Assembly (NCBI GenBank): GCA_003990745.1
Contig: RBNI01002400.1
Location: 1-18,647, forward strand
Direction: 5' to 3'
DNA length: 18,647 nt
Origin: Jimgerdemannia flammicorona
Taxonomy: Eukaryota; Mucoromycota; Endogonomycetes; Endogonales; Endogonaceae
Shown here one piece after another: positions 2,291-18,647 of this stretch; position 1 is the stretch's first letter; each line of letters starts with the position of its first letter. Below the pieces are notes generated by a model that worked only from the letters and a program-made list of their open reading frames with translations, was not told the origin of the DNA and made no database searches. Position numbers and translations under genes: made by a program.

Positions 2291-2754
2291 TATAACAGTT
2301 CTAGTTTCTTTAAGAAAAAGCAGCTAAATCTGAAGGTTCTAGTTAGCCTAAAGTAGCTTGAAGAGATACTTAAAGATTCAAGTATTCTTGAAGAATTTCT
2401 GGGAGAAAATATTCTGAGCTTTATTCAGATAGTGAACAAGGATATTTATACATAATCTGAAAGAAATATCTAGAAGGTTCTTGGGAAGAAAGAGAAATGC
2501 TAAGAAATAGATTCTCAGCAAAGCTGACTAAAACAATTCTACAATATTCCAAAATGTTCTATAACTAGCTAAGATAAGATACTTGGTACTAAGAAAAGAC
2601 AAAAATGTTCTAGTAGTGTCTGGGCACCAAGAGAAGGTTTCTAAGCAACTAAAAGATGGTAGAACATAGTAGAATGTTCAATAAATAATAAGAAAAGACT
2701 AACTAAAAGATGCAAAAATATACTAAGACTAAATATATCTGTAAAATTATTATA
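2291..2754 (-). repeat. 3' LTR of gypsy element A, 464 bp
   Basis: Plus-strand ends are TATAAC and ATTATA. The matching right LTR starts TGTAAT, so the original termini were probably TGTAAT/ATTACA and the left copy has lost TG/CA to transitions. Homology with 7856-8240 runs for about 380 bp (shared landmarks TCTAGTTTCTTTAAG, GCAGCTAAATCTGAAGG, GAGAAAATATTCTGAGC). The inner end at 2754 directly abuts a polypurine tract, which fixes it as the 3' LTR. Confidence 0.85.
2420..2450 (-). promoter_or_regulatory. LTR core promoter and poly(A) signal of element A
   Basis: On the minus strand TATAAATA (2450-2443) is followed 17 nt later by AATAAA (2425-2420). The same pair with similar flanks occurs in the putative LTR of element B (12335-12367), which supports both as LTR control regions. 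Confidence 0.5.
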
Positions 2755-2767
2755 TTTCTCTCTTCTT
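2755..2767 (-). other. Polypurine tract of element A
   Basis: The minus strand reads AAGAAGAGAGAAA directly before the 3' LTR, the position where plus-strand DNA synthesis of LTR elements is primed. Confidence 0.7.
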
Positions 2768-3079
2768 AAGAACTAACATTCTTGTTGAGTTCTTAGATAA
2801 TACAAGACTAGATATACTTAACCAAAATTTCTCAAACTTATATTAGTATATTGGCAAGAATTGACCATTCTTGTATAGGGCAGAGGGTCTATTACTAGAC
2901 TAACCAACTGAAAGAGATTCAAATCCAGCTAGTAGCTTCATTTCAGTAGACTTCTTATTCATTAAATGTTCTGCTGGTTCTGGGGTCCCAAAGTAAACTT
3001 CTGATGTATAAGGCACTAGTTATTACTGTAAGTTGTTGATAATATAAGGAAGTTACTACAGAGATTAGACAATACATTT

Positions 3080-4300
3080 TACCTCAAAGTCTTGAACTAG
3101 ATCTTGAGAGTTCTTAAGATTGACTAGTAGTTTCCAGATAGCATCATATTCAGAGTAGCTCATCTACTTGACTAAATATTCAGGACAGTAGTAGTGGATT
3201 CATTTGTCAATGATTTTATACTTGATATGGTCTTCAATAATCACTGGGGCAGATGGCTTAGGAATTTGACTAGAGTAGAGTGGTGACTGGTTCCAGGTCT
3301 TGAGGTGTGATACATAAAAGCTAAATATACTCTTATGGTTTTAGGTAGCTTGAGGTAGTAGGAGGATGCAGAGACTTAAAAAGGTTCAATATACTTGAGT
3401 TGGAACTTGTTCAAAGGATAGTTGACTTGAGATTATATCTTGAGATTCTCAGTAGACAGTAGAACTTGATCTTCAACAGTATAAGTAATATTATGGTATT
3501 TCTTATCAGTATACTTGGCTTGATGCTGTTGAGCCTTCTAAAGATTCATAGTGGCAGTCTTGAGTAGTTTGTATAAGGCTCTTGATAGTAGGGACTTGAC
3601 TTGCAGGGGTCTCAGGATCTTGACCATAGAGTAACTAGAAAGGGGAAAGATCAGTAGATGATTGAATAGCATTGTTGTATACAAACTCCACATAAGTCAA
3701 GTAGTAGTCTCAATTATCTTGCTCATAAGAAATATAGTCTCTAAGTATCTGTTCTAGAGTTCTGTTCATGCACTTAGTTTGTCTATTAGTTTGTAAGTAG
3801 AAGGTAGTAGACATAGCCAATTGGGTTCCCAGGGTCTTGAAGAGAGTTTGCTAGAAGTGACTGGTGAACTTGGGGTCATAATTACTGATAATTACTTATA
3901 GCAGACTATAGTGATAGAAGATAGACTTGAAAAATATTCTTGTAAACTCAAGTATAGTAGTATTAATAGTAATTGGTTTGGCAACTATAGTATTGGTCAG
4001 AAAGTCAATGAATATGATGATAGCATCAGTATCAGATTGAGTTCATAGTAATTAAGTTATAAAGTCCATGGTAACTTTCTTGAATTTCTTAGTGAAAATT
4101 AGCAGTGGTTGTAGCAAACCAACTAGTACTTGGTTGGTAGACTTGTTGCACTGACATAGATCACAGCTGGCAATATAGTTCTTGATTTCCTTGCCAATAA
4201 TAGCAGCATTGGATGTTCTTGACAGTCTTCTCAATTCCCAGGTGACTGACAAGAGGGGAGTCATAGTGTTCTTGTAAAATCTTATAGTATAGGTTTATGT
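3080..4300 (-). pseudogene. Element A integrase with C-terminal chromodomain, broken
   Basis: Integrase inserts the cDNA; the chromodomain of chromoviruses guides insertion to marked chromatin. The frame open from 4264 to 4052 carries the zinc-finger cysteines (CDLCQ), the linker VGLLQPL and the first catalytic Asp in VTMDFIT (4066-4064). The second acidic position reads Asn (SNYDPKF, codon 3883-3881) and the third reads Lys (NRQTKCMNR, codon 3775-3773). Spacings are exactly x60 and x35, so two of the three catalytic residues have been lost by G-to-A changes without indels between them. A chromodomain-like stretch follows at 3250-3080 (IIEDHIKYKI, EYLVK, SEYDAIWKLLVNL, NSQDLVQDF), with TGA and TAG at positions where chromodomains normally have Trp. 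Many other stops are present. Confidence 0.85.
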
Positions 4301-4479
4301 TTTTGGATAGATAGACTTATTCTTGATGATAGATCAGGTTATTCTCAATAGTATATATGTATATCCTTGAGCTCATTTGAGAAAACTCTAGTAGCAACTG
4401 TATCTTCTTTATAAGCTTACCTGATTTGGTCTAGAAATTCTGATGCCAAGGTGACTTGTATGATTGTAGCAAGATCCAG

Positions 4480-5700
4480 ATATCTTGATAAGGTATCTGA
4501 TACTACAAGTGTCTTGCTAGGCTTGTAGATGATCCTCAGGTTGAAAGTTTGAAGTTTGAGGCTCCACTTGACTTATAAGCATAATAGAGTAGACTGGGTG
4601 TTAATGTACTTAAGAGATTGATAGTCAGTAATAACATTAAACTCAATATTCTCTAGATAGTATTACCAGTGGTCTAGTATATGTATTATTGCTAGTAGTT
4701 CCTTTTCATAAGTGACTAGCTTCTGTTTAGCTGTGGCTAACTTGTGGGACTCAAAAGCAATAGAATGATGTCCTTTGCCATCATCTTGTGACAGGACTAC
4801 TCTAATGGTAAAATTTTATATATCAGTAGTGACTGTGAATTTTAGGTCTTGATCTATATTATGTAGGACTAAAGCATGGGTCAGGCAGTTCTTGAGTTCT
4901 TGAAAGGCTTGTTGACAGAAGAGATCCCAGGTATAGGATACATAGTGGTCTGAGTGTGGAGTCTTCCTCATGAGATTAGTCAGTAGCTCAGCAATGCTAG
5001 AGAAGTTTCTGATAAAGTGATAGTAGTAGCCAGCTAGGCCAAGGAAGGATTGGAGTTCTGTAAGGTTTGATAGAATAGACTATTCTTGAATTACCTCTAT
5101 CTTGTGTGAGTTTACTTAGATTCCTTATGCAGAGACAATATGGTCAAGATATTTGACTTGTTCCTTAAAGAATTTATACTTCTTGAACTTAGTATAAAGC
5201 TTGTGTTTTTGCAGAATCTTTAGGACTTTTTGAATATATTTGAGGTATTCTTCTTTAGTTGTACTAAAGATCAGGATGTTGTCAAGATATATTAATAGAA
5301 AAATATATAGTTAGTCCTTGAATATCTTATTCATCAAGGTCTAGAATATGGCAGATTCATTGATGAGACTAAATACTAAGACCAGGAATTCATAAAGTCT
5401 AAAGGGGGTCATAAATACAGTCTTGGAAATATCTTCTGACTTGATTTGGATCTGGTGGTATTCTGACATAAGGTCTAACTTAGTGAAATACTTAGCATTC
5501 TTAAGAGCATCAAAGATTTGATCAATCAAGGGTAGTGGATAGTAGTTCTTGACAGTGAGCTTATTGAGTCTATGTATATTTACAGAGTACTATCCTTCTT
5601 CTTGATGAATAGGACTGGTGAGCCATAAGGAGATTTGCTTGGCTGAATGGCTCCTCATGCAAGTAGTTCTTCTAGTTCCTTCTTGACTGCTTCAATTTCA
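4480..5700 (-). pseudogene. Element A reverse transcriptase and RNase H, broken
   Basis: RT copies the element RNA and RNase H removes it. In order on the minus strand: SPYGSPVLFIKKKD (about 5645-5600), the open segment 5529-5341 with FTKLDLMSEYHQIQI and FMTPFRLYEF, then YLDN at 5289-5278, FLGLAGYYYHFIRNFSSIA near 5030, and RNase H with VTTDI, IAFESHKLATAKQKLVTYEKELLAI and VITDYQSLKYI (about 4850-4600). The catalytic pair of the RT box is YLDN instead of YLDD; the change of the second Asp codon to Asn is a G-to-A at a former CpG. At least one frame change separates this part from the protease, and stops occur throughout. The domain call is firm; activity is ruled out. Confidence 0.85.
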
Positions 5701-5774
5701 AGTAGTGATATATAGTACATATGTTTCTTGAGTGGTACAGTTCTTAGGGTCAGTTTGATTTCATAATCAACTTC

Positions 5775-6355
5775 TCATATAGGCAGTAGACCAGGGAGTT
5801 TATCTGGAAAGATATTCTTGAATTCTTCTAGCAGTAACTTGATGTTTCTATTGACTAATAGTTTCTTATCTTGTTTCTTGAGATGGACTATTACAATAAA
5901 GGCATATATTACTTTCTTGAGTACTCTCTTATACTGTATAGCTGACAGTATTGTAATCTGGGTCTTACTTATAGTCTTGTCTGTCTTGATAGTGATGTTG
6001 GCTCTATCTTGAAGTAAGGTGACTTCATTCTTACACCAATTAATGTCTGAGTTGTGTTTTATAAGCCAGGGTTTTTCTAGGATTAGATCATGATCTCCTA
6101 GTGGTGCAAATTCAAAGTCTATCCATTCCCAATATTTCTGGATCTTGATGGATAGTTTGGAAGAAATTGACTTGATGGAGTATAGTATACCATCTGTAGT
6201 GACTATACTGTTATTCTTGAGTATAGGCTTGGTGAGGATCTTGAGACTTTTGATGAAATTCTGATTGATGAAGTTCCCTGCAGCTCTGCTGTCTATGAGC
6301 ACTTGAACTTCTTTTTCTTTAACCAGACCTTTGAAAATGAGTATAGCTTGAGCTC
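5775..6355 (-). pseudogene. Element A aspartic protease, catalytic Gly lost
   Basis: The protease cleaves the Gag-Pol product. An open frame of 176 codons (6302-5775) begins VLIDSRAAGNFI. In active enzymes the motif is D-S/T-G; here Gly is Arg (codon 6287-6285, AGA), a G-to-A change at a position that would have been CpG. The flap and C-terminal part follow (DHDLILEKPWL), then the linker into RT (EEFKNIFPDKLPGLLP), the usual start of the gypsy RT region. The frame upstream is continuous with the dUTPase-like domain, separated by a short Lys/Glu-rich linker with one TGA (near 6350). GTG at 6302 is only the edge of an open stretch, not a real start, because the protein is part of a polyprotein. 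Confidence 0.85.
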
Positions 6356-6357
6356 AA

Positions 6358-6745
6358 TTTTCAGTAAGACTTACTGCTTGATCAGTGCTATCAAAATCTT
6401 TTTGATCTCACTTAGTTTCAGAGAGTTCATGGACTTCTGCAATCTTAAGTTGACTGGCTTTTTCTAGGATCATTTGTACAACTCAGTCTCCTTCCTTGAC
6501 TGTATAGTCTTGATCCTTCTGATTGATAAGCAGAACTTAAACTTGTCCTTGAAAGTCTGGGTCAATAATACCAGCACCTATATTTAAATAATGTTTGATA
6601 CTGAGTCCTGATTGTAGTACAATTCTGGCATAATATCCTTCAGGACATTGGACTGCAATTTCAGTAGGCACTAGAGTTCAGCTCTTGGCTAGAATGGTGA
6701 CTTGTTTGACAGTATAAGTCAAGACAAATGGCTTCTTCTTTTTGA
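6358..6745 (-). pseudogene. Element A dUTPase-like domain, placed before the protease
   Basis: dUTPase hydrolyses dUTP to dUMP and pyrophosphate and keeps uracil out of DNA. In one frame with the protease the minus strand shows motif II as GYYARIVLQSGLS (normally RSG; Arg codon now CAA, about 6614), motif III with the catalytic Asp as GAGIIDPDFQGQV (6578-6540), motif IV as GD-stop-VVQMILE (TGA at 6485-6483 where Arg is expected, CGA to TGA), and motif V as KDFDSTD (6401-6381), where the family has GFGSTG, so each Gly reads Asp. Stops also at 6539 (TAA) and about 6390-6410 (TGA). I could not find motif I (AGxDL) upstream; it may have decayed or this version may lack it. The motif order and spacing make the family call strong for the C-terminal two thirds. 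Confidence 0.78.
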
Positions 6746-6859
6746 TATTGAGGGGCCTGGGCCTTAGATGAAGCTTCTTGATCTTGAGCTCAGATTGACA
6801 AATAGTAGGGTTGACAGGTGTGTCTTTGGACAACATAGTGACTGATCTAGAAGATTTGC

Positions 6860-7765
6860 TAGCCTTCTTAGGATATTTGGTTGTAATATATCCTATTTGA
6901 CAATAGAAAAAATAGGCTCCAGATTTCTTCAGATAGTCCTTTTCTTCAGAGATGAGCTTGGTGTTCTTTTGTTCATAGTGTCTAAGTTCATTAGTACTGG
7001 ACCAACTATCCTTGGTTGGTTTCTATTGTAGTTTTTGAAGTAGTTCTTCTTGTAGTATTCTGGTTCAAAGCAGTTATCAAAGGTGATAACATTGAACCTA
7101 TTGGCAATCCTCATAGCTTCATCAAGACTTTGTAACTCTTCTAGCTTGACCTTGACTCATGTGTTTTCCTTCAGACCTCAGATATAGCAGTCTATCATTT
7201 TATTCTCAGCTATCACTAATAGTTCAAGGAGGATTGACAGGAACTTTACATTATAGTATTGTACAGACTTGAGTTGCTTGATGTTTGCTAGCTTATCTCT
7301 AGCTAGCTTGGTAGTATTAGCAGGCTTGAACTGCCTATGAAGGGCTCTCTTAAAAGCTTCCCAATCTTTGATTTGTATATGTAAGTATATAGATATAATC
7401 ATAATATAATTATATCACCAAATGACTGCATTTCCTCAGAGAAGTGTGGTGGCAAATTGGACTTATATGTCTTCTTTCATTCTTATAAGCTCAAAGTATT
7501 GGTCTAATTAGAAGGTCCATACATCTATAGATAGTCCTCCTCAGTAACTATTGAAGATATCTAGCTTGAGTGGCTTGAAACTGACTAGTACTATAGCAGA
7601 ATGTGATGTACTTACAGTTCTTGTTTTCTGCTATTCTAGTTGTGCTTGAAGTGCTTGGATTTAGTGGACCATAGAGATGATTATATCCTCTATGCTAACT
7701 TGTGGTTCTCCTGCTTCTTCTATAGCAGTAAGGTCTGGCTATTAGGCTGACTCTTCACAGCTCAT
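6860..7765 (-). pseudogene. Element A Gag with obliterated CCHC knuckle
   Basis: Gag is the structural protein that packages the RNA. The likely start is ATG at 7765 (MSCEESA), 91 nt inside the right LTR. A coiled segment (IQALQAQLE) follows, then a matrix/capsid region with the open part 7402-7178 (WEAFKRALHRQFKPANTTKLARDKL, pattern typical of gypsy gag), and 7114-6929 (RIANRFNVITFDNCFE). A frame change lies near 6990-7010. The knuckle at 6914-6873 reads Y-x2-Y-x4-Y-x4-Y: spacing is exactly that of C-x2-C-x4-H-x4-C, but all four ligands are Tyr (TAT codons). Each is one C:G to T:A step from TGT or CAT. About ten stops interrupt the frame, most at places where Gln or Trp would fit. Confidence 0.8.
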
Positions 7766-7855
7766 TTTAGGTTTGTGTGACTAGTTGTGACTGGTTTCTG
7801 GATTTGTATAAGGTTTCTTAATAAGGCAAGATATAACAATACTACTGCTACTAAG

Positions 7856-8240
7856 TGTAATGGTTCTAGTTTCTTTAAGAGGAAGCAGCTAAATCTGAAG
7901 GTTCTAGTTAGCCTAAAGTAGCTTAAAGAAATACTTAAAGGTTCAAGTATTCTCAAAGAATTTCTGGGAGAAAATATTCTGAGCTTTATTCAGGCAGAGA
8001 ACAAGGATATTAATACATAATCTGAAAGAAAGATCCAGAAGGATCTTGGAAAAAAAGAGAAATTCCAAGAAATAAGTTCTCAGTAAAGCTAATTAATACA
8101 ATTCTATATATTCTGAAAGGTTCTATAACTAGCTAAGATAAGGTACTTGGTGCCAAGGAAGGATAAGAATGTTCTAATAGTTTCTGGGTACCAAGAGAAG
8201 ATTTCTAAGGAAGTAGAAGGTGGTGGAATATTGTAGAATT
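7856..8240 (-). repeat. 5' LTR of gypsy element A, truncated on its outer side
   Basis: Starts TGTAATGG on the plus strand and matches 2291-2685 in the same orientation. About the last 80 bp of the LTR are missing: at roughly 8225-8240 the sequence switches into an inverted copy of the same LTR. The switch point shares a short word close to TAGAAT in both orientations, as expected for a template switch. No primer site beginning TGG is visible next to it on the inner side (minus strand CTTAGTAGCAG), so the primer type is unknown. Confidence 0.8.
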
Positions 8241-8484
8241 ATATTAGTCAGCTTTGCTGAGAATCTATTTCTTGGCATTTCTCTTTCTTTCTAAGATCCT
8301 TCCAGATCTTTCTTTCAGATCATGTATAAATATTCTTGTTCTCTATCTAAATAAAGCTCAGAATATTTTCTCCCAGAAATCCTTTGAGACCACTTGAACC
8401 TTTAAGTATCTCTTCAAGCTACTTTAGATCAACTAGAATCTCTAGATTTGGCTACTTCCTCTTAAAGAAACTAGAACCATTATA
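8225..8484 (+). repeat. Inverted LTR fragment forming the right end of element A
   Basis: The reverse complement of 8225-8484 matches LTR nucleotides 1-270 (2291-2560). Landmarks are GTCAGCTTTGCTGAGAATC, TATTTTCTCCCAGAAATC and CTTAAAGAAACTAGAACC. It ends CCATTATA, the inverted form of the LTR start, and is followed by CATCC, the target duplication. With 7856-8100 it can fold into a hairpin of about 240 bp. Confidence 0.85.
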
Positions 8485-8489
8485 CATCC
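8485..8489. repeat. Right target-site duplication CATCC of element A
   Basis: Matches 2286-2290 exactly and directly follows the inverted LTR end. Confidence 0.7.
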
Positions 8490-8535
8490 AATCTGAATTC
8501 ATCAATCTGAATCCTCTAATCTGAATTCTCCACAT
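8490..8535 (+). repeat. 14-bp minisatellite, right part (about 3-4 copies)
   Basis: CAATCTGAATTCAT, CAATCTGAATCCTC and TAATCTGAATTCTC are consecutive 14-mers that continue the left array in register if element A and one CATCC are removed. Confidence 0.8.
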
Positions 8536-8547
8536 AACTCATATATT

Positions 8548-8680
8548 GAATACATCTATACAAACACATATATACACAAACACACATGTATACAAACATA
8601 TATGTATACAAATACACATATATGCAAATATACATATATATATAAAAACACCCATATAACTATATAAATACATATATATA
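8548..8680. repeat. Degenerate CA/TA microsatellite
   Basis: A purine-pyrimidine alternating tract rich in ACACATATATACACA-type words. Open frames across it encode only Ile/Tyr/Val repeats and are not genes. Confidence 0.7.
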
Positions 8681-8999
8681 TCAATAGATCAGTCTTCAAT
8701 AGTTCATAGTATTGATGATGCTTCAAGTCAAACATCCTCAATAGTTCCACACTTTCCATGCAATCCTTACTCCAAAATCTAGCAATATTGTACTAAGACC
8801 AGAGATGATGTTATTTGTAATTATTGTGGGTAAAAAATTAAAAAAAAAAAGATATATATATTTATAATATAACTAATGCTTTTGTTTGATGTGTATATAC
8901 ATAATGTTATTTCTATCAACCCCCATATACTATATAGCCAGAAGTTCAAAATGCTTGATAGGTTAACTTCAAATATATATTGATATATAAAAGACAAAT
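8681..8999. other. AT-rich stretch without supported gene
   Basis: It contains an A-rich tract (8836-8850) and a hydrophobic minus-strand open frame (9081-8821) rich in Ile, Phe, Leu and Tyr, which is what very AT-rich DNA gives by chance. Nothing else could be supported. Confidence 0.5.
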
Positions 9000-9330
9000 A
9001 CTCTGAAAAAATCAAAAATAATATGAAAACAAATAAAATTGATATCCAAGCTGTAGTGAGTATATTTATCTGATTGCCCAACTAATTCTATATTAATAAC
9101 CTCATTTAATCAAAAATATTTAGCTATATTCTTTAGCAGAATTTCAAAATTAACTCATTCACTGGATTGTATACATAGACCAACTATTTATAACTATTGA
9201 GAGTAACCAGTTACATAGTATCTTTGGCCTTCTCAAGTATGATTTATATCTATCAAGTACTAATACTATTTACAAAGATATCTAGAGACCTATAGAAAGG
9301 AGCATAATAATCTTTACCAGATACTTCAGA
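9000..9330 (-). pseudogene. Possible decayed minus-strand coding remnant
   Basis: One minus-strand frame from about 9327 reads protein-like blocks (EVSGKDYYAPFYRSLDIFVN, ILEKAKDTM, LVTLNSYK, LVYVYNPVNELILKFC, LGNQINILTTAWISILF) separated by about ten TAA/TAG/TGA codons, nearly all where Gln or Trp would fit. The neighbouring LTR-like unit begins at 9377. It may be part of the same gene as the fragment at 10380-10974, because both are on the minus strand on either side of that unit. The family is unknown and chance cannot be excluded. Confidence 0.3.
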
Positions 9331-9376
9331 TAAAATAAATAAATAAAAGCTACATATTGTAAGCTTAATTATATAT

Positions 9377-10396
9377 TGTAACAGTGATCTCAGAATAGTG
9401 ATATCATTATAGGAGACAGTCTTTCTTTATAAGTTATAAGATCAGAGCACAAGAATATCATACAGTATAACTTATCCAGGCTATAAGATGAGCAATGATG
9501 ACTAACTATGAGTTATTGTAACTACAAGATAGACATCTCAAGGAATATAAAAGAAGAACTAAGAAACTATAGCAACAGCAACTCAAACAAGACTTACAAA
9601 ACCCCAAAATAGCTCAAAGACTCACTATAAACAAAATGTCTACTACCTATCAAATCTCAAAGTCTAGGAACTACCAAGGATTCTCAGTCCAAGAAAGAAT
9701 ATTCCAAGATATCAGAAGAGCCATAAGGACCCACACAAGAAGAACTCTTAGTCTCAATCTGAGTACTGATGACTTTTATCACTTTATCCTCTACTACTGT
9801 AAAATGGAAATAAGGATCACTATTACTACCAAATACCTCTGGATGTGGCAGGAATACAAAATAGGAAACCTTCGCTATCAGAAATTTCCTCAGGCCAGTC
9901 CCCAAGAGATACAAGATACCACCTCTATAGATATATATAAAATAAGGATAGCCAAGAAGATTTATCAGATCTTCAGATATACACTATGGTCAATCCTCAA
10001 CTTGGATATACCAGAGTCTCAGACTTCAAGGAATTGACAGCTTGCCATATAAATACACTAGAGGCCATCATGGCAACAGAAGTCTAATTCACTATCACCC
10101 TCAATAGTGATAAGATATAAGAGTTCTGGAATCCTATTCTCCAAGACAATCCAGATCAATTTCTGCAAGGATTGATCTCAGTATTCCAAGGCCCCAGTAT
10201 CTAGGTTAGATCTCCCCAAGACCCCACATTTGTCTTTTATTTTGTGAAAGAGAATGCCATAGACTGAAGAGACCTGGATCTCCTTGCTCTCTCTACCACT
10301 GCCAAATATAATGATGTCATCCCACTAATTAGCAACATGTGTAAAGTATGCAAAATACATAACATATATGAAACTACTAAGCTAATCTGCTGTTAA
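9377..10396 (+). repeat. LTR-like unit, copy 1 (truncated on the right)
   Basis: Direct repeat of 11045-12060. Both copies start TGTAACAGTGA and are preceded by ATAT. They share GACAGTCTTTCTTTA, AGATGAGCAATGATGAC, AATAGCTCAAAGACTCACT and CAAGGATTGATCTCAGTATTC. Copy 1 lacks the last 300 bp or so that in copy 2 contains TATAAATA and AATAAA. It may be an older solo LTR of the same family, cut by deletion or by a later insertion. Confidence 0.75.
9495..10396 (+). pseudogene. ORF X copy 1, unknown protein inside the LTR-like unit
   Basis: The frame begins at two adjacent ATGs (9495, 9498). The first 45 residues are charged and Gln/Leu/Lys-rich and could form a coiled coil (HLKEYKRRTKKL; stops near 9519 and 9573 where Gln fits). 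The open part 9636-10037 continues with SVQERIFQDIRRAIRTHTRR and FILYYCKM. After a single-base frame change near 10005 it reads RVSDFKEL, ATEV, EFWNPILQDNPDQFLQGLIS, SPQDPTFV and ENAID-stop-RDLDLL, ending at TAA 10394. The same blocks occur in copy 2 with mostly conservative replacements, so this was once a protein of about 300 residues. I do not recognise the family: no zinc finger, protease or polymerase motif is visible. The unit's place in an LTR would make it comparable in position, not in sequence, to LTR-encoded accessory genes of some retroviruses. Confidence 0.6.
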
Positions 10397-10974
10397 GTCC
10401 AGCAATTTGCTCAAAGAACTCCAGATTATAGTCACCATCACTATATAGGCTATGTTATACTTACATATAGCTTATTCTTCAACAGCACTTCTAAAGTTCT
10501 GATAAGGATACTGAATCTTGTATATTTCTGAAAATTTAACAAAAATAGGTTAGTAAAGAAAATCTCAAAAAAAATAAAGATGAATGTGAAAAAAACTCTG
10601 GAGAACTCACTCTTTGCCAATGTTGTAGTATATTCAATTCTCATCCAAACTCTCCCTATCTGCTTTTTATACTCCCTCTTTTCTGCTATCTAGTATTTGA
10701 TACAATCCTTACAAACCTTATTGATATAGTAATAAAGCTCATTACTGTAGAGATTTCCTATCACTACTGTAACAATCTCTTTATATTTGTTAACAATAAT
10801 GTAGTTCTCTTCATCATTGAATACTCCAGTAGGCCAATGGACATCTTGATTGAGAATTATTGGCTCTAATTTGAATATAGACCCCCAAGTATTAATAGTA
10901 ATACTGGTATTGCTTATACTAAATAACTTACTCTTGAACTTCCCTATTTGATCAGATATCAGACATGATTGAAC
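10380..10974 (-). pseudogene. Minus-strand gene fragment with spliceosomal intron, unknown family
   Basis: A frame free of stops from 10974 to 10693 (94 codons), then one TAG (10692-10690, where Trp would fit), then open again to 10611, reads like a real protein: GSIFKLEPIILNQDVHWPTG, NYIIVNKYKEIVTVVIGNLY, INKVCKDCIKY, KKQIGRVWMRIEYTTTL. It has no ATG in its long part, so the start lies upstream or is lost. An intron follows at 10610-10528. The next exon keeps phase and reads IYKIQYPYQNFRSAVEE, then TAA, and a GTAAGT at 10464. A further open bit DYNLEFFEQIAGLNSR lies at about 10434-10387, but I cannot place its splice acceptor. No function can be given. It lies between two LTR-like units on the opposite strand. 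Confidence 0.6.
10528..10610 (-). other. Spliceosomal intron, 83 nt
   Basis: Donor GTGAGT (10610-10605), branch site TACTAAC (10555-10549) and acceptor TTTTCAG (ending 10528). The branch A is about 22 nt from the AG, and the intron body is T-rich with stops in some frames. Joining the exons keeps a protein-like frame (phase 1). Size and branch sequence are typical of fungi. Confidence 0.7.
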
Positions 10975-11148
10975 TTAAGTAACTTTGAATTATCCTCTAC
11001 AGTGGAACTAGGTCTTGATCTGAGTAGTGGGCCAAGTTAAATATTGTAACAGTGACCCCAGATTGATGACATCAGCATAGAAGACAGTCTTTCTTTACAA
11101 GCTACCAGATTGGAGTACAAGAAGATTATATGGCATATGAGATGAGCA

Positions 11149-12107
11149 ATGATGACCAACTGTAAGTCATTGCAACCACAGTATGAGTATCTTGAGGAAT
11201 ATAAAAGAAGGATCAAGGAACCACAGTACCAGCAACCAATAAGACCCACTAATTCCAAAATAGCTCAAAGACTCACTCTAAATGAAATGCCTGCTGCTTG
11301 CCAAACCTCAAGGTCAAGAAACCACCAAGGCACCTCAGTCGAAGAAAGAATGTTCTAAGACATTAGAAGAGCCATGAGGACCCATACAAGAAGGACTCCT
11401 AGTGTCAATCTGGATACTGCTGACTCTTATCACTATATCCTCTACTATTGTAAAATGCACCATTACTACTGAATGCCTCCAAATAAGGCAGGAGTATGAA
11501 ATAGGAAACCTCCTCTGCTGGGAGTTCCCACAGATCAGCACTCAAGAGCTATAAGATGCCACTTCCATGAATATACATGAAATAAGGACAGCTAAGAAGA
11601 TTCATCAGATCTTCAGGCATGTACCATAGTCAATCCCCAACTTGGAGTATGTTAGAGTCTCAGACTTCAGAGACCTATCAGCCCACCATATCAATGTACT
11701 AGAAGTCAGAGTGGCTACAGAAGCCCAGTCCACTATCACCTTGATAGCAACAAAGTAGAAAACTTCTGGCATCTCATCCTTCAGGATAACCCAGACCAAT
11801 TCCTGCAAGGATTGATCTCAGTATTCTAAGGTCCAAGCATTTGGTTAGATCCCCCTAAGACCCCACATTTGTCCCCTATTTCATGGAAGAGAACCTCATA
11901 GACTGGAGAGTACCAGACCTCCTTCCTGCCACCAAACATGATGACATCATCAGAAATGACATCATCCTACATGACATACATGAAGCATGCACAGTACATG
12001 AAATGCACGACCTATATGACAATGATGAATTTGCAGACCTCATCTCCTTTGAAGACATTCTGACCTCTGATGATGAAGCCCCCATAGTCCTGAACATTCT
12101 GCTCTAA
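11149..12107 (+). pseudogene. ORF X copy 2, unknown protein with acidic C-terminus
   Basis: Same protein as copy 1. The frame starts at ATG 11149 and is open to a TAA at 11356 (YLEEYKRRIKEP, AQRLTLNEM, SVEERMF), then continues DIRRAMRTHTRR and YILYYCKM. An indel of about 10 bases relative to copy 1 lies near 11460. The next frame reads QEYEIGNL, AKKIHQIFRHVP and RVSDFRDLSAHHIN, a one-base loss lies near 11745, then FWHLILQDNPDQFLQGLIS. The last part (11883-12107) is fully open: NLIDWRVPDLLP followed by an Asp/Glu/His-rich tail ending SFEDILTSDDEAPIVLNILL. The total is about 310 residues. The acidic C-terminus is better kept than in copy 1. The family is not recognised. Transcription would start upstream of or within U3, so a separate promoter or readthrough would be needed. 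Confidence 0.6.
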
Positions 12108-12334
12108 GTCCTTTGGTTATACTGAATAATGCCAGTACTGATATTCTGATGTAACACTGAATATTACCAGCACTAGTATTCTGATATGATACTAAATTAT
12201 ATCAGCATCCTGAACCTATACAACCATCAGTACTGACCCTGGAACTTAGCTGTTTTTCCTGTCCTGGTAATTTATTTTAGTTATTGGAATTTATATTTAG
12301 CTTTATATCTTAGCAACTATTGAATTATATTTTG

Positions 12335-12367
12335 TATAAATACTCCTCTCATTTCCTCTGAAATAAA
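12335..12367 (+). promoter_or_regulatory. LTR core promoter and poly(A) signal of element B
   Basis: TATAAATA at 12335-12342 and AATAAA at 12362-12367, separated by a CT-rich spacer, the same layout as in the element A LTR (TATAAATA, CT-containing spacer, GAATAAAG). Confidence 0.55.
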
Positions 12368-13332
12368 GTCAGTTAATTCAGTTCCTCTCAGTATAATATA
12401 CATACTTCCTTGCAAGCAATCTAAGAGATAACAAGACAGTTTAAAGATAAGAAGTTTGAGGACTATAAGATCTTGGGAAGATGCTTCAATAAGAACTTGC
12501 TTATAACAAATTTGAGTTAGTCTAAGAGATACATATATCTTAAAAAGAATCTGGCATATTTGAAGAACTCAGTGACTACTATGTAACAACTTAGTACCCA
12601 TTGGCTGGTGATTCAAGACGAATCCCTCACTTTCAAGCTGAAAAACAAACAACCTCCACAACAACTATACTAACTACAAGAGTCACCCCTGCAAGAATAC
12701 AAGATAAGATGGAAATGCATCTCACCACATTCTATAGATATACTACTGAAGAGTCAATTCTGATCTTTATTGAAGACTTTGAACAATTCGCCACTGTACA
12801 AGCCCTTAGTGTAGATGTACAATTGGCTCTTCTACCAGTCAGCCTCAGAGGACCTGCCAGAGACAAGTTCAATGTAGCCACTATTACTGATAATGGTACA
12901 GCCAAACTTGCAAACATAAAGGCCTTCCTCAGAACAACATACTATACTGAAGAGATCAAGCAAGCTCTCAAGGATTAACTCAATACTATCTGCCAGGGAC
13001 TTAGTGAAGATCCTAACTTATTCTATATCCGAATCTGCCACCAGATTATCTTGGCTGGCTATGATGATGCCCTCAAGGAACAAATAGTGGATTCAACCTT
13101 TCTCAAAGGAGTTCACCCTGAAAATGCCCCAGCAATCTGGTCTACCCTAGATGTACTGACCCTTGATCAGAAAGTGGTCTTTGCACAGAGATATTGGACT
13201 GCCAGATACCCTGCCAAACACTTAATGGAGAAAATAACTGACATCAAGATGGAGCCATCAAAGCCAACTAGTATCATATCTACTACAGTTGTAAACAGAC
13301 AACCATCCCCACCTACCCCCAAGACAGCCAAA

Positions 13333-13340
13333 GCTGACCC
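13333..13340 (+). repeat. Left 8-bp target duplication of the MITE (GCTGACCC)
   Basis: Identical to 13765-13772. Eight base pairs is the hAT superfamily length. Confidence 0.9.
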
Positions 13341-13764
13341 TAGTGCTCCCAAACAAGTCGAATCAATTCGAATCGAATCAAATTGAGGGTTAAATGAGTC
13401 GAATCGAATTGGGGATTTTTCAATTTGAATCAATTTGAATCGAATCAAAAGTCGAATTGAATTGAGGGTCTGATTTGAACCCTAAATTTCAAAATGCAAT
13501 AACTCAGCGTAAACTCATCCAAATCTAACGTACTTTAGCTTGTTAGAATCACATTAATACAGTGAATCTAACAAGCTAAAATATATTAAATTTGGATGAG
13601 TTTTCGTCGAGTTATTACATTTTTAAAATTAAGGTTCAAATCAAACTTTGAATCGAATTGGACCTTTGATTCGATTTGAATCGAATCAAATTGGACCCTT
13701 GATTCGATCGAATCGAATCAAGTTTGGGCCAAATTTGATTCGATTCGATTCATTGGGAGCACTA
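13341..13764. mobile_element. hAT-type foldback MITE, 424 bp
   Basis: Perfect 12-bp terminal inverted repeats TAGTGCTCCCAA/TTGGGAGCACTA with an 8-bp duplication GCTGACCC on both sides, the signature of non-autonomous hAT elements. Subterminal regions are packed with GAATCGAATC words in inverted orientation. Inner arms (for example AATAACTC, AACTCATCCAAAT, TAGCTTGTTAGA at 13498-13545 against 13570-13618) pair as well, so nearly the whole element is one long hairpin centred near 13555. It has no coding capacity; a transposase in trans would be needed. It keeps many CpGs, unlike the gag around it, and its termini are undamaged, so it is the younger insertion. Confidence 0.92.
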
Positions 13765-13772
13765 GCTGACCC
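13765..13772 (+). repeat. Right 8-bp target duplication of the MITE (GCTGACCC)
   Basis: Exact copy of 13333-13340 directly after the right terminal inverted repeat. Confidence 0.9.
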
Positions 13773-14277
13773 AGTGGAGGAACTTATCAAGCAGTTCACT
13801 AAGATTACTACACACCTTGGTGATGTTGTTAGAGAAGTCTGAAGTGCCAACAGGAGACCAGTGTAGAGATTTGCAACTACTACACAAGAATGCAATATCA
13901 CATGCTTCAGATATGGAGAAGAAGGCTACTATGCAAAGAATTGCATGACCAAAACAAGATGTAAAGCCCAACTAAGCAATGCTAGCAGAACCAGAGAACA
14001 AACTAATACAGTAGTCATCAAGGAGATTGGTGATACTGATGATGAAGAATACTATGAGGAGCTCGAATTTTACCTCACTACTAAAGGTACCAGAACCCAG
14101 TCCAAGCTCTATGACAAGAAGAGCAACAGTAAGCCAGTTAGAAGACCAAAGAAGACCCCAGCTGTCACTATTCAAAGTAAGACTCAACATCAAGACATAG
14201 AGTTAGATGAAGCTGCTTGCAAAATTATTGAAGGCACTACTCCAGTCTCAGGAGAAAGCGAAAGCAAAAAGGAATAG

Positions 14278-14856
14278 AAGCTGTACAAGACCAAGATCTA
14301 CCAGTATGATATCTACAAGGATCTCAAGGAACAGAAGGTCAATGCTACTTTTGGACAGCTAGCCAAAGTCTCTGCCTTCAGACAGCAGTTGAGAGTAGGA
14401 CTTACAACTACTGCTAAGAATCAAGAGTACAAGATTGTAGAAGCTCACAATATACAGAAAGAATCTGAAAACTCAGGTAAAGAATCCAAAGACCAGCACA
14501 AGACATCAGCCTATACCCCATGTCAGATTGAAGACTGTATTGTTGATGCCATCATTGATACTAGTGCTAGAGGATGCCTCATAAGTAAGAAGACTATTGA
14601 CTACCTAGGCTGGGACATTGAAGAGTCTACCAAGATGGTCTATGTCACAGTAGATGGTACACAAGCTACCTCTCTTGGAAAAATCCAAGAAGTCTCCATC
14701 AAGATAGGAGGAGCAACCATCCCAGTAGATATGATAGTTACAAGCACCACCAACTATGACATCCTCATTGGCAACCAATGGCTTTACAAGGCCAAGATCA
14801 TCATTGACCTCAATGCCCAGAAGATGCAGATCAACTATAGAGGGAGAAAGGTATGA
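14278..14856 (+). pseudogene. Element B aspartic protease, D-T-S instead of D-T-G
   Basis: Continues the gag frame after a TAG at 14275. A basic/Tyr-rich linker (KTKIYQYDIYKDLKEQK) leads to the open stretch 14389-14856. The active-site block is DAIIDTSARGCLISKK; the catalytic Asp codon is 14557-14559 and the Gly expected third reads Ser (AGT at 14563, GGT to AGT). The flap region (YVTVDGTQATSLGKIQEV) and the C-terminal block NYDILIGNQWLYKAKIIIDL fit a retropepsin fold of normal length (about 100 residues). It ends at TGA 14854, where Trp fits. It would be inactive or nearly so because the D-T-G glycine is structural in this family. The family call is firm. Confidence 0.85.
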
Positions 14857-15639
14857 GTCTCTATCAATATCCATAAAGAAGTCCTACCAGACATGGAGGA
14901 AAGAGATGAAGAGGACACAGAGGTCTTCATGCACTCAGTGAATAAGAACAAGAACAAGACACCCAAGCTCATAGATGAGCAGTGGTACAACAAGATCATC
15001 AATGGCTATGCCCCTCAAAGAAGATGCCCCTATGGTACTAGGATGTACTGCTCTGAACACCTGAATAACTACTGGTCCTGTATCAGTGAAGTCAGGAAAA
15101 TCCACCAACAGAAACACAAGCAAGAAGCCATCAAAGCAAAAAGGAAAGCTAAAGAAGATGACCAGCCCCCAGAGCTTCAAGCTGATAATGATGATGAGGA
15201 AGAACAAGAACCAGATATCACCCTCAAGGTCAAGAAGTTCCACCCTGAAGCCAAGATCCCAGAATACAAGACTGAAGGAGCCATAGGAATAGACCTTGCC
15301 AGCATTCAAGATGCTACCTTCAAACCACAGACCACCACCATACTTGGCACTGGAATTGGAGTCAAGCTGCCAGAGAACTATGTCAGAATTATCAAGACCA
15401 GGAGCAGTCTGGCCAAAATTGAAATCTCAGTTAAAGGAGGAGTAATTGACCCTGATTACACTGGAAAGATCTTTCTTATAGTCAGAAATCACAACTCCAC
15501 CACTCCATTCAAAGTCAAGAAGCATGACAGGATTGGTCAGATACTGATCTACGAAATCAAGAAGCCCAAGACTATAGAAGCCATTGAACTCCACAAGACC
15601 AAGAGAGAAGAACAAGGCTTTGGATCAACTAGAAGATGA
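14857..15639 (+). pseudogene. Element B linker and dUTPase domain (all five motifs)
   Basis: An open run of 248 codons (14893-15639) in the polyprotein frame. The first 110 residues form a linker with a Cys/His-bearing block (CPYGTRMYCSEHL, YWSC) and a Lys then Asp/Glu-rich stretch. The rest is a trimeric-type dUTPase: motif I EGAIGIDLAS (15271-15300), motif II RSSLA (15400-15414), motif III GGVIDPDYTGKI with catalytic Asp at 15448, motif IV HDRIGQILI (15523-15549), motif V GFGSTR (15616-15633). The enzyme turns dUTP into dUMP. Lesions are light: motif IV starts HDR rather than GDR, and two Gly of motif V are Glu/Arg. It sits between protease and RT, and ends at TGA 15637 where Trp or Arg fits. 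It is marked pseudogene because the surrounding polyprotein is broken; the domain itself is the best kept in the window. Confidence 0.88.
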
Positions 15640-17110
15640 GCCTATGCCACCATCAAGATTACCGAACTTGAACACAAGAAAGACAAGGACCAGAACAAGC
15701 ACACATATACTATTGGAGAAAACTTTCTCCTGAAAGAACAACTTCTTAAGATCCTGCACTAGGATGAAGGAGTACTTGCTACAGACTTCAGGGATATCCA
15801 CAATCAAGGACCCAAGTATTACTACAAAGTTGACACTGGTGATACTAAGCCCATCTACCAGAAAGCCAGACCCATACCACCTGCCTACAGAGAATGGCTG
15901 TGAGCAGAACTCAAGAAAATGGAAGAAGCTAGAATTATCAAACAAGCTATCAGTCTCTAGGCTTCACCCATTGTCCTTGCCTCAAAGAAAGGAAGCAAGC
16001 CTAGAGAGTTTGTACCAAGACTTTGCATTGACTACAGGAAGCTCAATGCCATCACCAAGAAGGATAGGCAGCTCTTGCCAAATATTCAAGAAATCCTTAC
16101 CACTCTTAGAAGTGAAGCCAAATACTACACTATCTTAGATCTGTTTTCAGGCTTCCATCAGATTGGTCTCACTCAAGATGCCAGTGAGAAATCTGCCTTT
16201 ATCACACCTAATGCCACCTATATCTACCTGTGAATGCCATTTGGAATGTACAATGCCCTAGCAAGTTTCCAGTGAATGATAAACAGAGTCTTCAGTAATG
16301 AGATTGGAAAATGACTCTTTGTCTATATTGATGATGTGATCATCTTCAGCAATACTGCATGGGAATATGTCAATCATATATAGCTAGCCCTCAAGAAGCT
16401 CAAGGAGCATGGTCTTTATATTAAGTCCAAGAAATGCAAGTTTGCAGTCCAGGAAATCACCTACCTAGGACACCTCATCAACCAGACCAGAATCCACACA
16501 GACCCCATGAAGATTGAGGCTGCTGTAGCCTACCCAAGACCCAGAACAACCACAGAAGTCCATGCCTTTCTTGGACTGGCCAGCTACTATAGAAGATTTA
16601 TCAAAGGATACTCCAACATTGCAGTACCTATCTATGAGCTACTGAAGAAGGAAACCAAATTCAAATGGACTAAGGAATACCAAGAAACCTTCAATGAACT
16701 CAAGACCAGGTTGACCCAAGCACCTATCCTCAGAAGACCAGATTGGAATCTAGAATTCATCCTGCAGACAGATGTAAGTGCTATAGGACTTGGAGCAGTC
16801 CTAGCTCAGAAGAAAGATAGACATGAATATATCATCTCCTATGTAAGCCAAGATATCCATAGAGCAGAACAGAACTATGAGTCATGCCAGCTTGAATGCT
16901 TAGCAGTAGTTTGGACAGTAGACAAGTTCCACTACTACCTAGCTGGGAAACACTTCACTATTCAAACAGATCATTCTGCTCTTGCCTGGCTATTCCACAC
17001 TCTGAACCCCAAAGGAATATATGCCAGATAGATCTATAGGCTGTAATAGTATGACTGTACTGTCAAGCACTGCTCAGGAAGAACCAATACTAATGCTGAT
17101 GCACTCTCAA
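15640..17110 (+). pseudogene. Element B reverse transcriptase and RNase H, broken
   Basis: Same frame as the dUTPase. Order: TAG at 15760; KPIYQKARPIPP; TGA 15901; TAG 15958 before ASPIVLASKKGS; LCIDYRKLNAITKKD; LDLFSGFHQIGL; TGA 16231 before MPFGMYNALASFQ; TGA 16273; TGA 16312; VYIDDVIIFS with intact YIDD (16324-16335); TAG 16381; KCKFAVQEITYLGHLI; then the open part 16507-17031 with FLGLASYYRRFIKGYS and RNase H acidic residues in LQTDVSAIGLGAVLAQ, YESCQLECLAVVW and FTIQTDHSALAWL. TAG 17029 and adjacent TAA/TAG follow, then GRTNTNADALSR at the end of RNase H. Several TGA codons sit where Arg is usual in this family (CGA to TGA), others where Trp is. The catalytic residues survive, but at least nine stops rule out expression. 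Confidence 0.9.
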
Positions 17111-17129: not shown

Positions 17130-18165
17130 CATCAAGATTACTCAATATGAATAAGAAGTTATACTATGGATTAATCAGCTATCTTGGGCAGCAAAAGATG
17201 CCCAACCACCTTGAACCCTGGACAATCACCATTATTAATGAGACTTGGAAACAGTTTGAACTAGACAACACTATACTCAGAAAAGGAGGAAAACTAGTAA
17301 TACCTGAATACAAGAAGTATCAAGTAATGAAGGAAGTATACAAGCAAGAACACCTAGAAGAAACCAATACATACAACAAGGCAAGAAGAATCATGTGGTG
17401 GCCCAAGATGGAAGAAAACCTGTGCCAATTTGTCAAAGGGTATGATAAGTACCAAAAGGAGAAACAAGATCAGCAAGACTAGGCACCTGGGTCATCAAGA
17501 ATTGAGCATATCCCCTTCCATTACATTGCAATAGATATCATTGGGCTACTACCAGTAACACTATCAGGAAACTGCTATATTATAGTTATTATAGACCTCT
17601 TTACCAAATGGATAGAAGCAGGAGCATTACAAGAAGCCAATACCCTCTCTATAGCTAACTTCCTGCACTAAGAAATCATCTGCCACTATAAGACACTGAA
17701 GCAAATCACAACAGACCATGGCACAGAATTTGTCAATAGATTCTATGAGATAATATATCAGAAATACAAGATCCAGTATATCAAGACCACTGTATACCAC
17801 CCTCAAGGAAATAGACAGACAGAAAGAACCAACAAGATCCTTAAGAACATCCTGGCAAAAATCTCAGAGACATACGAGAATTAGTATAACTATCTCTCAA
17901 CTGCTCTCTCTATTCTATGAGACATATGGTCACAGAGTACACACTTTACCCCAAGGGAACTGCTCTTTGGAGAAGAAGATTCTGATGGAACCTTAGCCAC
18001 AAATCAAGACCTAACTTGGAGATAGGTCAATACAGAAATCTAGAGACTACACCAAATCAGGAAGAAGGCTGAAGATTACATCATCAAGTCACAAGTGCTG
18101 ACAAGGAAGAATACAGAAAAGAATCACAAGACCCTAGAACCCATCTGAATCAGAGAAAAGGTTCT
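17130..18165 (+). pseudogene. Element B integrase, catalytic triad intact, zinc finger lost
   Basis: In the second frame relative to RT (one-base shift at about 17105-17160). The N-terminal finger reads EHLEETNTYNKARRIMWWPKM then YDKYQKEK: the two cysteines expected as C-x2-C are both Tyr (TAT, TAC near 17441-17453). The core has IAIDIIG (Asp 17534), TTDHGTEF (Asp 17714) and PQGNRQTERTNK (Glu 17822), spacing D-x59-D-x35-E, all unmutated. Stops lie at 17480, 17669, 17882, 17918, 18023, 18041 and 18146. The C-terminal part continues FTPRELLFGEED and AEDYIIKSQ, then is cut near 18165 by LINE sequence; no chromodomain or 3' LTR is left. The call is firm and the gene is dead. Confidence 0.88.
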
Positions 18166-18167
18166 AC

Positions 18168-18647
18168 AGGTGCTCACACTACCCTTGGAAAGAGGTGGGC
18201 TAGGCTTAGTGGACTTTCCTAAGCGGCTCCTATGCCTTAGAGCTTGGTGGTTGAGAAGAGCTAGTGAGCTTCATGGTCGGGAGTGGGTGCCACTCATGCA
18301 GCGATTGTGGGAGGTTCAGTACTCCCCACGTGGTGACTCAGGTGATTTGCTCATGATGGTGGCTATGGAGGGGAGCAGGAGGGTGCGGTTTACGGGCTTC
18401 TGGTGGGGGGTGGTGGATAGCGCGAAGAAGATTGGACTTCGGTGGCGAGGTGATGAGGCCGAGGACGATTAGGGACCACAGATGTGGCGGTGGGACAGGT
18501 TGTTGCTCGGTGGTGTCCCGGTGGAGGACTTTAAGCTTGGAGAGGGCCTGGAGTGTCTGCGTGGCCTAGGTGTAGACCTGTGGCCTGAAGCGTGGCAGAG
18601 AGTTGGAATCGGCGAGGAGTGGGACTGGAATGGAATCTGGCTCTGGA
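18168..18647 (+). pseudogene. LINE-type polyprotein, C-terminal piece beyond RT, runs off the window
   Basis: A non-LTR retrotransposon fragment. The frame opens LTLPLERGGLGLVDFPKRLL followed by a Trp/Arg/Leu-rich stretch (CLRAWWLRRASEL), the pattern found after the RT domain of plant and fungal LINEs. After a TAG at 18470 (Gln fits) the same frame goes on to the window end (MWRWDRLLLGG, VEDFKLGEGLECL, EEWDWNGIWLW). Base use is GC-rich with many CpGs, in sharp contrast to element B just before it. The start lies inside the integrase of element B, consistent with a 5'-truncated insertion. No RT catalytic motif is in view, so the exact clade cannot be given. It might be joined to the poly(A)-tailed type seen at 24-172. 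Confidence 0.6.

Follow-up and report, generated by a model that had tools for sequence, protein, structure and literature searches.

Putative Ty3/gypsy retrotransposons of the fungus Jimgerdemannia flammicorona carry a dUTPase domain at two positions of Gag-Pol

Why would two retrotransposons in one stretch of DNA both carry a dUTPase, and why at different places in their polyproteins? Trimeric dUTPases convert dUTP to dUMP. Among retroelements they are best known from animal retroviruses, and retroviral dUTPase is thought to reduce uracil in the complementary DNA (cDNA). We addressed this question in an 18,647-nucleotide stretch of the Jimgerdemannia flammicorona genome (contig RBNI01002400.1, hereafter the window), for which an original prediction from the sequence alone had proposed two gypsy elements with the domain in two places. 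Judged from the matches in the window, it most probably holds two decayed Ty3/gypsy long terminal repeat (LTR) retrotransposons from separate families (A, minus strand; B, plus strand), each with a trimeric dUTPase within Gag-Pol. As part of this same reading, the predicted layout is Gag-knuckle-dUTPase-protease-reverse transcriptase (RT)-RNase H-integrase in A and Gag-protease-cysteine-rich segment-dUTPase-RT-RNase H-integrase in B. The protease-RT-RNase H-integrase order of Ty3/gypsy elements (Metaviridae) is present in both, and both are old mobile elements of a repeat-rich fungal genome.

The dUTPase matches of the two elements are far above chance. In B, the Pfam profile PF00692 aligns with 89.2 bits (cut-off 22) to residues 131-258 of the open frame 14857-15639, which places all five motif regions between protease and RT as had been predicted. 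In A, the stretch 6677-6378 on the minus strand, with its stops read as X, scores 76.9 bits over profile positions 32-128 of 129. The profile search is thus significant for both elements (E values in Table 1). The A domain as a whole (6759-6378, minus) lies between the Gag knuckle and the protease, in agreement with the original prediction, which had credited it with motifs II to V only; this last part needs correction, as motif I survives at 6759-6712 in another frame. There it matches the dUTPase of locus L041 (tblastn E 2e-4) and that of L042 (62.5% identity, E 0.01). All five motifs were thus once present in element A, whose frame is now broken. The other parts of A include a Gag capsid region and a CCHC knuckle, the latter degenerate, the RVP_2 protease match in frame 6353-5775 (minus) and an H2C2 finger immediately upstream of the integrase core (E 4.3e-6). 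As to the chromodomain that chromoviruses have behind the integrase, a Chromo match in A (E 0.035, 14.5 bits) falls under the cut-off of 25.1. For B, no Pfam match to Gag or knuckle was returned in the three window frames tested or in L062:2952-3533, and no chromodomain was among the matches up to E 0.05. No LTR pair of B was recognised in the repeat search of the window, which stops soon after the B integrase.

To follow the domain orders beyond the window we turned to the genome assembly (134.8 Mb, 7754 contigs). Its 51 Zn2Cys6 domain matches and its actin-type genes, whose exon places by eye imply short introns, fit a fungal host, and its ribosomal protein L3 is closest to chains that we take to be fungal. 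Genome searches scored 150 places out of 5391 loose candidates with PF00692, 150 of 4819 with the A dUTPase and 147 of 7046 with the B unit of segment plus dUTPase; the scored places are lower bounds, and the candidate totals are not copy numbers. The dUTPase precedes the protease in 30/30 loci of family A, the window being one of them, and in 30/30 loci of a family C, whose dUTPases are 52.6-58.8% identical to that of A. We also paired the coordinates of separate searches. Among the matches listed, the protease stands just behind the dUTPase in 80 of 80 paired A copies and just before the segment-dUTPase unit in all 45 paired B copies. All 147 B-unit rows and all 150 A dUTPase rows were entered, together with rows on visibly shared contigs from two further searches (51 and 83, of 150 each) and 30 rows on shared contigs from each of two more. 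The choice was made by eye and pairs may have been missed; 102 of the 147 B-unit rows and 70 of the 150 A rows were left unpaired. One additional weak match to the B protease on the opposite strand of locus L038 (30%, E 1e-5) was not counted.

Both orders also occur in stop-free frames. Locus L062 of family B encodes protease, dUTPase, RT and RNase H within 854 amino acids, and a protein from another record (P0003) reads protease-dUTPase-RT. In P0001, from a Joint Genome Institute (JGI) record, the end of a dUTPase is followed by protease and RT; its match to a family D is 96% identical and covers 62% of the dUTPase query. In family D itself the dUTPase precedes the protease in the one locus fetched (L061), where the knuckle (19.8 bits, just below the cut-off of 20.8) and the dUTPase share one frame of 803 residues. 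The same order was found in 3/3 loci of a family E (L065-L067). Overall, at least five Ty3 families of this genome (A-E) carry a dUTPase, in two positions, and they were found via a dUTPase or a dUTPase-bearing element, so that they are no census of its Ty3 families. The order of dUTPase and protease is a family trait, fixed within each family as sampled. The claim of two families with the domain at two places is borne out by the profile matches in both and by their constant order across copies.

The least expected result is one segment with its two neighbours exchanged. This cysteine-rich segment of about 50 residues follows the pattern [WF]-Y-x-x-I-x-x-x-Y-x-x-x-x-R-C-P-[HY]-x-x-x-M-Y, with further cysteines behind it, and stands in the order dUTPase-segment-protease in D and E and protease-segment-dUTPase in B. 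The segment of P0006, a protein of the B type, is 56% identical to that of the family E locus L066 over 50 residues (E 5e-13) and 43% identical to that of the D-type protein P0001 over 54 (E 4e-10). Among the matches listed, it precedes the protease in 30/30 paired E copies. It was not found at E 0.01 in the 60 A and C loci (2.0 to 3.4 kb each), in P0003 or in P0004. The one Pfam match of the window segment is weak (PANTS-like, E 0.0063, below cut-off); up to E 10 the L066 segment gave no match in Pfam or, as the sole one tried there, in the PDB, and P0001 gave no Pfam match at the segment's place. The AlphaFold model of the segment is of low confidence (mean predicted local distance difference test, pLDDT, 64.0; predicted template modelling score, pTM, 0.40). 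In the small segment alignment the rows E_L067 and D_L061 were out of frame and were left unused. Tentatively, and with rather less than even confidence, we suggest that within one fungus dUTPase and protease swapped sides around this segment, as movable Gag-Pol cassettes traded between families, with the dUTPase repeatedly gained or reshuffled under selection. If true, the middle of Gag-Pol would be a set of such cassettes. Being shared by B, D and E, the segment is a marker with which to trace domain rearrangement.

Betaretroviruses have the order Gag-dUTPase-protease. In these viruses the dUTPase follows the Gag knuckle and precedes the protease, a layout shared with A, C, D and E. According to the part of Hizi and Herzig 2015 (PMC4531489) that deals with it, betaretroviral dUTPase is reached by frameshifting from Gag, with an effect on dose. 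In the D and B elements, unlike there, Gag, dUTPase and Pol share one phase: B runs from Gag through RNase H in a single phase, and in L061 the frame with knuckle and dUTPase (from 412) and that with protease and RT (from 3088) are in phase, with stops between them. As no frameshift separates Gag from Pol in B and D, the position of the dUTPase should not alter its dose there.

Varying positions of the domain among the Ty3 elements of one fungal genome are already known. For several Ty3 elements of Postia placenta, the passages on dUTPase in Novikova et al. 2010 (PMC2864245) place the domain at the amino end of Pol, at its carboxyl end or in the protease/RT interval. These passages refer to previous examples from Phanerochaete chrysosporium and Tuber melanosporum and suggest that the acquisitions were independent; they make no mention of a cysteine-rich segment like that of B, D and E. 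The Postia elements PosPlaTy3-3, -4 and -5 are, like the present ones, described as fungal Ty3 elements with a dUTPase at different places (PMC2864245), and we liken the Postia, Phanerochaete and Tuber elements to A and B by published description, not by sequence. A dUTPase at the carboxyl end of Pol, one of the Postia positions, was not seen here, though no search was aimed at such elements. The bdelloid rotifer LTR elements Juno, Vesta and TelKA have the order protease-dUTPase-RT in the description given in PMC5408684. By that description their dUTPase has the position of B, in an animal host, and Juno has an extra zinc knuckle after the dUTPase, whereas the B segment stands before it. A passage of PMC11105155 describes an enrichment of dUTPase domains, along with retroviral ones, in Entomophthora muscae. 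With at least five families and two positions that are stable within families, the question why retroelements keep a dUTPase becomes open to comparison: a single host offers hundreds of copies from which to read domain positions, decay and the trees of RT, protease and dUTPase.

Does this pattern call for one capture or several? The original prediction held that the domain was captured at least twice or moved within the polyprotein. Across the sampled Ty3 elements, we conclude, more than one event is needed. The approximately unbiased (AU) test rejects a single clade for the 12 Ty3 dUTPase rows against 35 other dUTPases (p-AU 0.0018; the grouping was chosen after a first tree had been seen, a use of which the tool warns). 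In the RT tree, P0003 with its protease-dUTPase-RT order groups with E (86/87) inside a clade of D, E and P0003 (89/90), D and E having the order dUTPase-protease-RT; these supports lie below the tool's starred level. With this nesting, the dUTPase takes opposite sides of the protease in elements that are fairly closely related, being about 60% alike in RT, 32-36% in protease and 37-45% in dUTPase. A and C, with identities of 70% in RT, 68% in protease and 60% in dUTPase, form one lineage. The differing positions would then reflect repeated events on the Ty3 tree, by multiple acquisition and/or by exchange or relocation between families. For the elements of the window themselves, a single origin of A, B and C was not rejected (p 0.333 and 0.337), so that capture and relocation are indistinguishable for the pair; the prediction is supported in part.

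Thinning at 70% identity reduced 116 comparison proteins to the 66 that entered the 82-row dUTPase tree (P0089, P0109 and P0124 were removed beforehand). The 47-row tree uses 35 of those 66 rows (every second one plus six named), with two long-branch rows taken out and P0076 moved to the elements. The protease tree was not used for E, as the E_L067 row was out of frame.

Several points weigh against repeated gain or reshuffling. Besides A, B and C, single clades were not rejected for A-D (p 0.216), A-E (p 0.186) and B with D and E (p 0.372), and the result for A-E would allow one acquisition with relocation in this genome. The dUTPase alignment is 138 columns long, and support is weak at most of the deep forks; in the RT tree two branches only are starred, and a long-branch warning applies to B and P0004. 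P0076 groups with A and C at 98/93 in the 82-row tree and with B and P0003 at 59/95 in another. The comparison rows are of unstated origin, and in one of them, P0076, the dUTPase is preceded by the end of a protease. The host dUTPase gene was not found: the best 150 of 5105 candidates for P0063 reach at most 46% identity. A single ancient capture in the ancestor of the Ty3 families of this genome, with a later shift of the domain to the other side of the protease in one lineage, is a contender, although we think it somewhat improbable. Motif I is similar in A, C and B (EGAIGxDL, with EGAIDLDL in part of the A copies) and by eye differs from that of most comparison rows, which points towards such a capture, as do the segment common to B, D and E and the dUTPase distances among D, E and P0003, which in view of their protease distances are compatible with ordinary divergence. 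However, the families do not form one group in either free tree (A/C, B and D; A/C, B, D and E), weak as the forks are, and motifs II and III differ, being RSGL and AGVID in C versus RSSL and GGVID in B and D. Moreover, the single clade is rejected once P0003, P0004 and P0076 join.

A search of viral contigs returned no relatives of P0003 or P0001 and one of P0006 (L070, 38%, E 3e-21), which matches residues 165-302, the dUTPase part. In two further proteins, P0002 and P0005, a region that by eye is RNase H-like and of the copia type is followed, within one protein, by a dUTPase with a Pfam match; this would put the domain downstream of RNase H in a Ty1/copia element.

What would the domain do? 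The dUTPase could be freed by the adjacent protease or be active within the polyprotein and, going by its enzyme family, would hydrolyse dUTP inside the particle or close to it and exclude uracil from the cDNA. Selection to keep uracil out of the cDNA is plausible. In B, C, D and E copies that lack stops, all five motif regions can be made out by eye, and every family scores as a dUTPase. We think it quite unlikely that the domain is kept for some role besides the hydrolysis of dUTP, with its catalysis dispensable in some families; that idea is suggested by motifs that look atypical by eye: IGFCIAQ for motif IV in D, VVDQGF for motif III in E, and REEQGFGST in the window copy of B versus RGEQGFGST in L062 and P0006. 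As motif IV of D and motif III of E depart from the usual form, activity should not be presumed in every family.

It is extremely improbable that both orders stem from decay, from chimeric copies or from misassembly. Several stops break the frame of A and the contigs are short, but the order is constant in 60/60 A and C loci and in 125/125 paired A and B copies, and both orders recur in stop-free frames, those of P0001 and P0003 coming from other records, so that the copy survey called for by the original prediction rules out rearranged single copies as their source.

Table 1 Features of elements A and B in the window.
Feature	Coordinates	Strand	Evidence
A 3' LTR	2291..2675	-	direct repeat with 7858-8239; Kimura two-parameter (K2P) distance of aligned pair 0.17
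A putative integrase core (broken)	3761..4225	-	38% over 155 amino acids to family E integrase, E 6e-31
A putative RT and RNase H (broken)	4612..5586	-	tblastn with B (L062) frame E 3e-52, with D (L061) frame E 3e-94; RT_RNaseH 3.9e-19
A putative aspartic protease	5979..6353	-	RVP_2 E 4.8e-11
A putative dUTPase motifs II-V, with in-frame stops	6378..6677	-	PF00692 E 1.6e-21
A putative dUTPase motif I, frame differs from other motifs	6712..6759	-	75% identity over 16 residues to L041 dUTPase
A degenerate zinc knuckle	6864..6914	-	aligned to knuckle of family C copy L003
A putative Gag capsid region (broken)	7046..7465	-	PF19259 Ty3_capsid E 3.4e-10; PF03732 1.7e-8; X-masked frame
A 5' LTR	7858..8239	-	direct repeat with 2291-2675; K2P 0.17
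B putative Gag region	12595..14277	+	frames in one phase; CCHC-like knuckle near 13890 by eye
B putative aspartic protease	14488..14847	+	PF13975 E 3.8e-10, residues 81-169 of frame 14278-14856
B conserved cysteine-rich segment, protease/dUTPase interval	14965..15150	+	84% to P0006 (1e-33), 42% to family E (4e-14), 37% to family D (3e-9)
B putative dUTPase, open, all five motif regions	15247..15636	+	PF00692 E 2.4e-25
B putative RT and RNase H	15961..17031	+	RVT_1 7.3e-9; RT_RNaseH_2 1.2e-34
B putative integrase zinc finger and core (broken)	17234..17836	+	H2C2 2.1e-9; rve 7.6e-10; 26% to family E integrase, E 1e-15

The decay of the elements is reflected in their CpG content. Element A (2291-8240) contains 0 CpG in 5,950 bases, with 176 expected; the observed/expected ratio is 0.118 in B, and three gene loci of this genome give 0.96-1.05. 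It averages 0.042 (0 to 0.198) over 30 A loci and 0.225 (0.072 to 0.392) over 30 C loci, and these family means could act as a decay clock. CpG-directed decay of fungal transposons is treated in passages of PMC4352252 and PMC4165359. Such decay can account for many of the stops in A, and the state of the elements therefore says little on when selection on the dUTPase ended.

An inverted copy of the A LTR lies at 8214-8485, beside the 5' LTR (87-88% complementary), and the B Gag region contains a 132-base inverted repeat (13421-13693; 82% complementary, with 9 bases between the arms). Between the two elements, 9369-11927 holds two blocks about 1,650 bases apart that are 75-84% alike in six pieces, and 9301-12000 has 2 CpG versus 89 expected. 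Positions 1-2200 retain 36 of 82 expected CpG. At 136-1475 and 18149-18472 lie fragments that by eye are copia-like and the end of a long interspersed nuclear element (LINE) reverse transcriptase; the first two frames of the copia-like fragments are on the minus strand and the rest are on the plus strand or unsettled.

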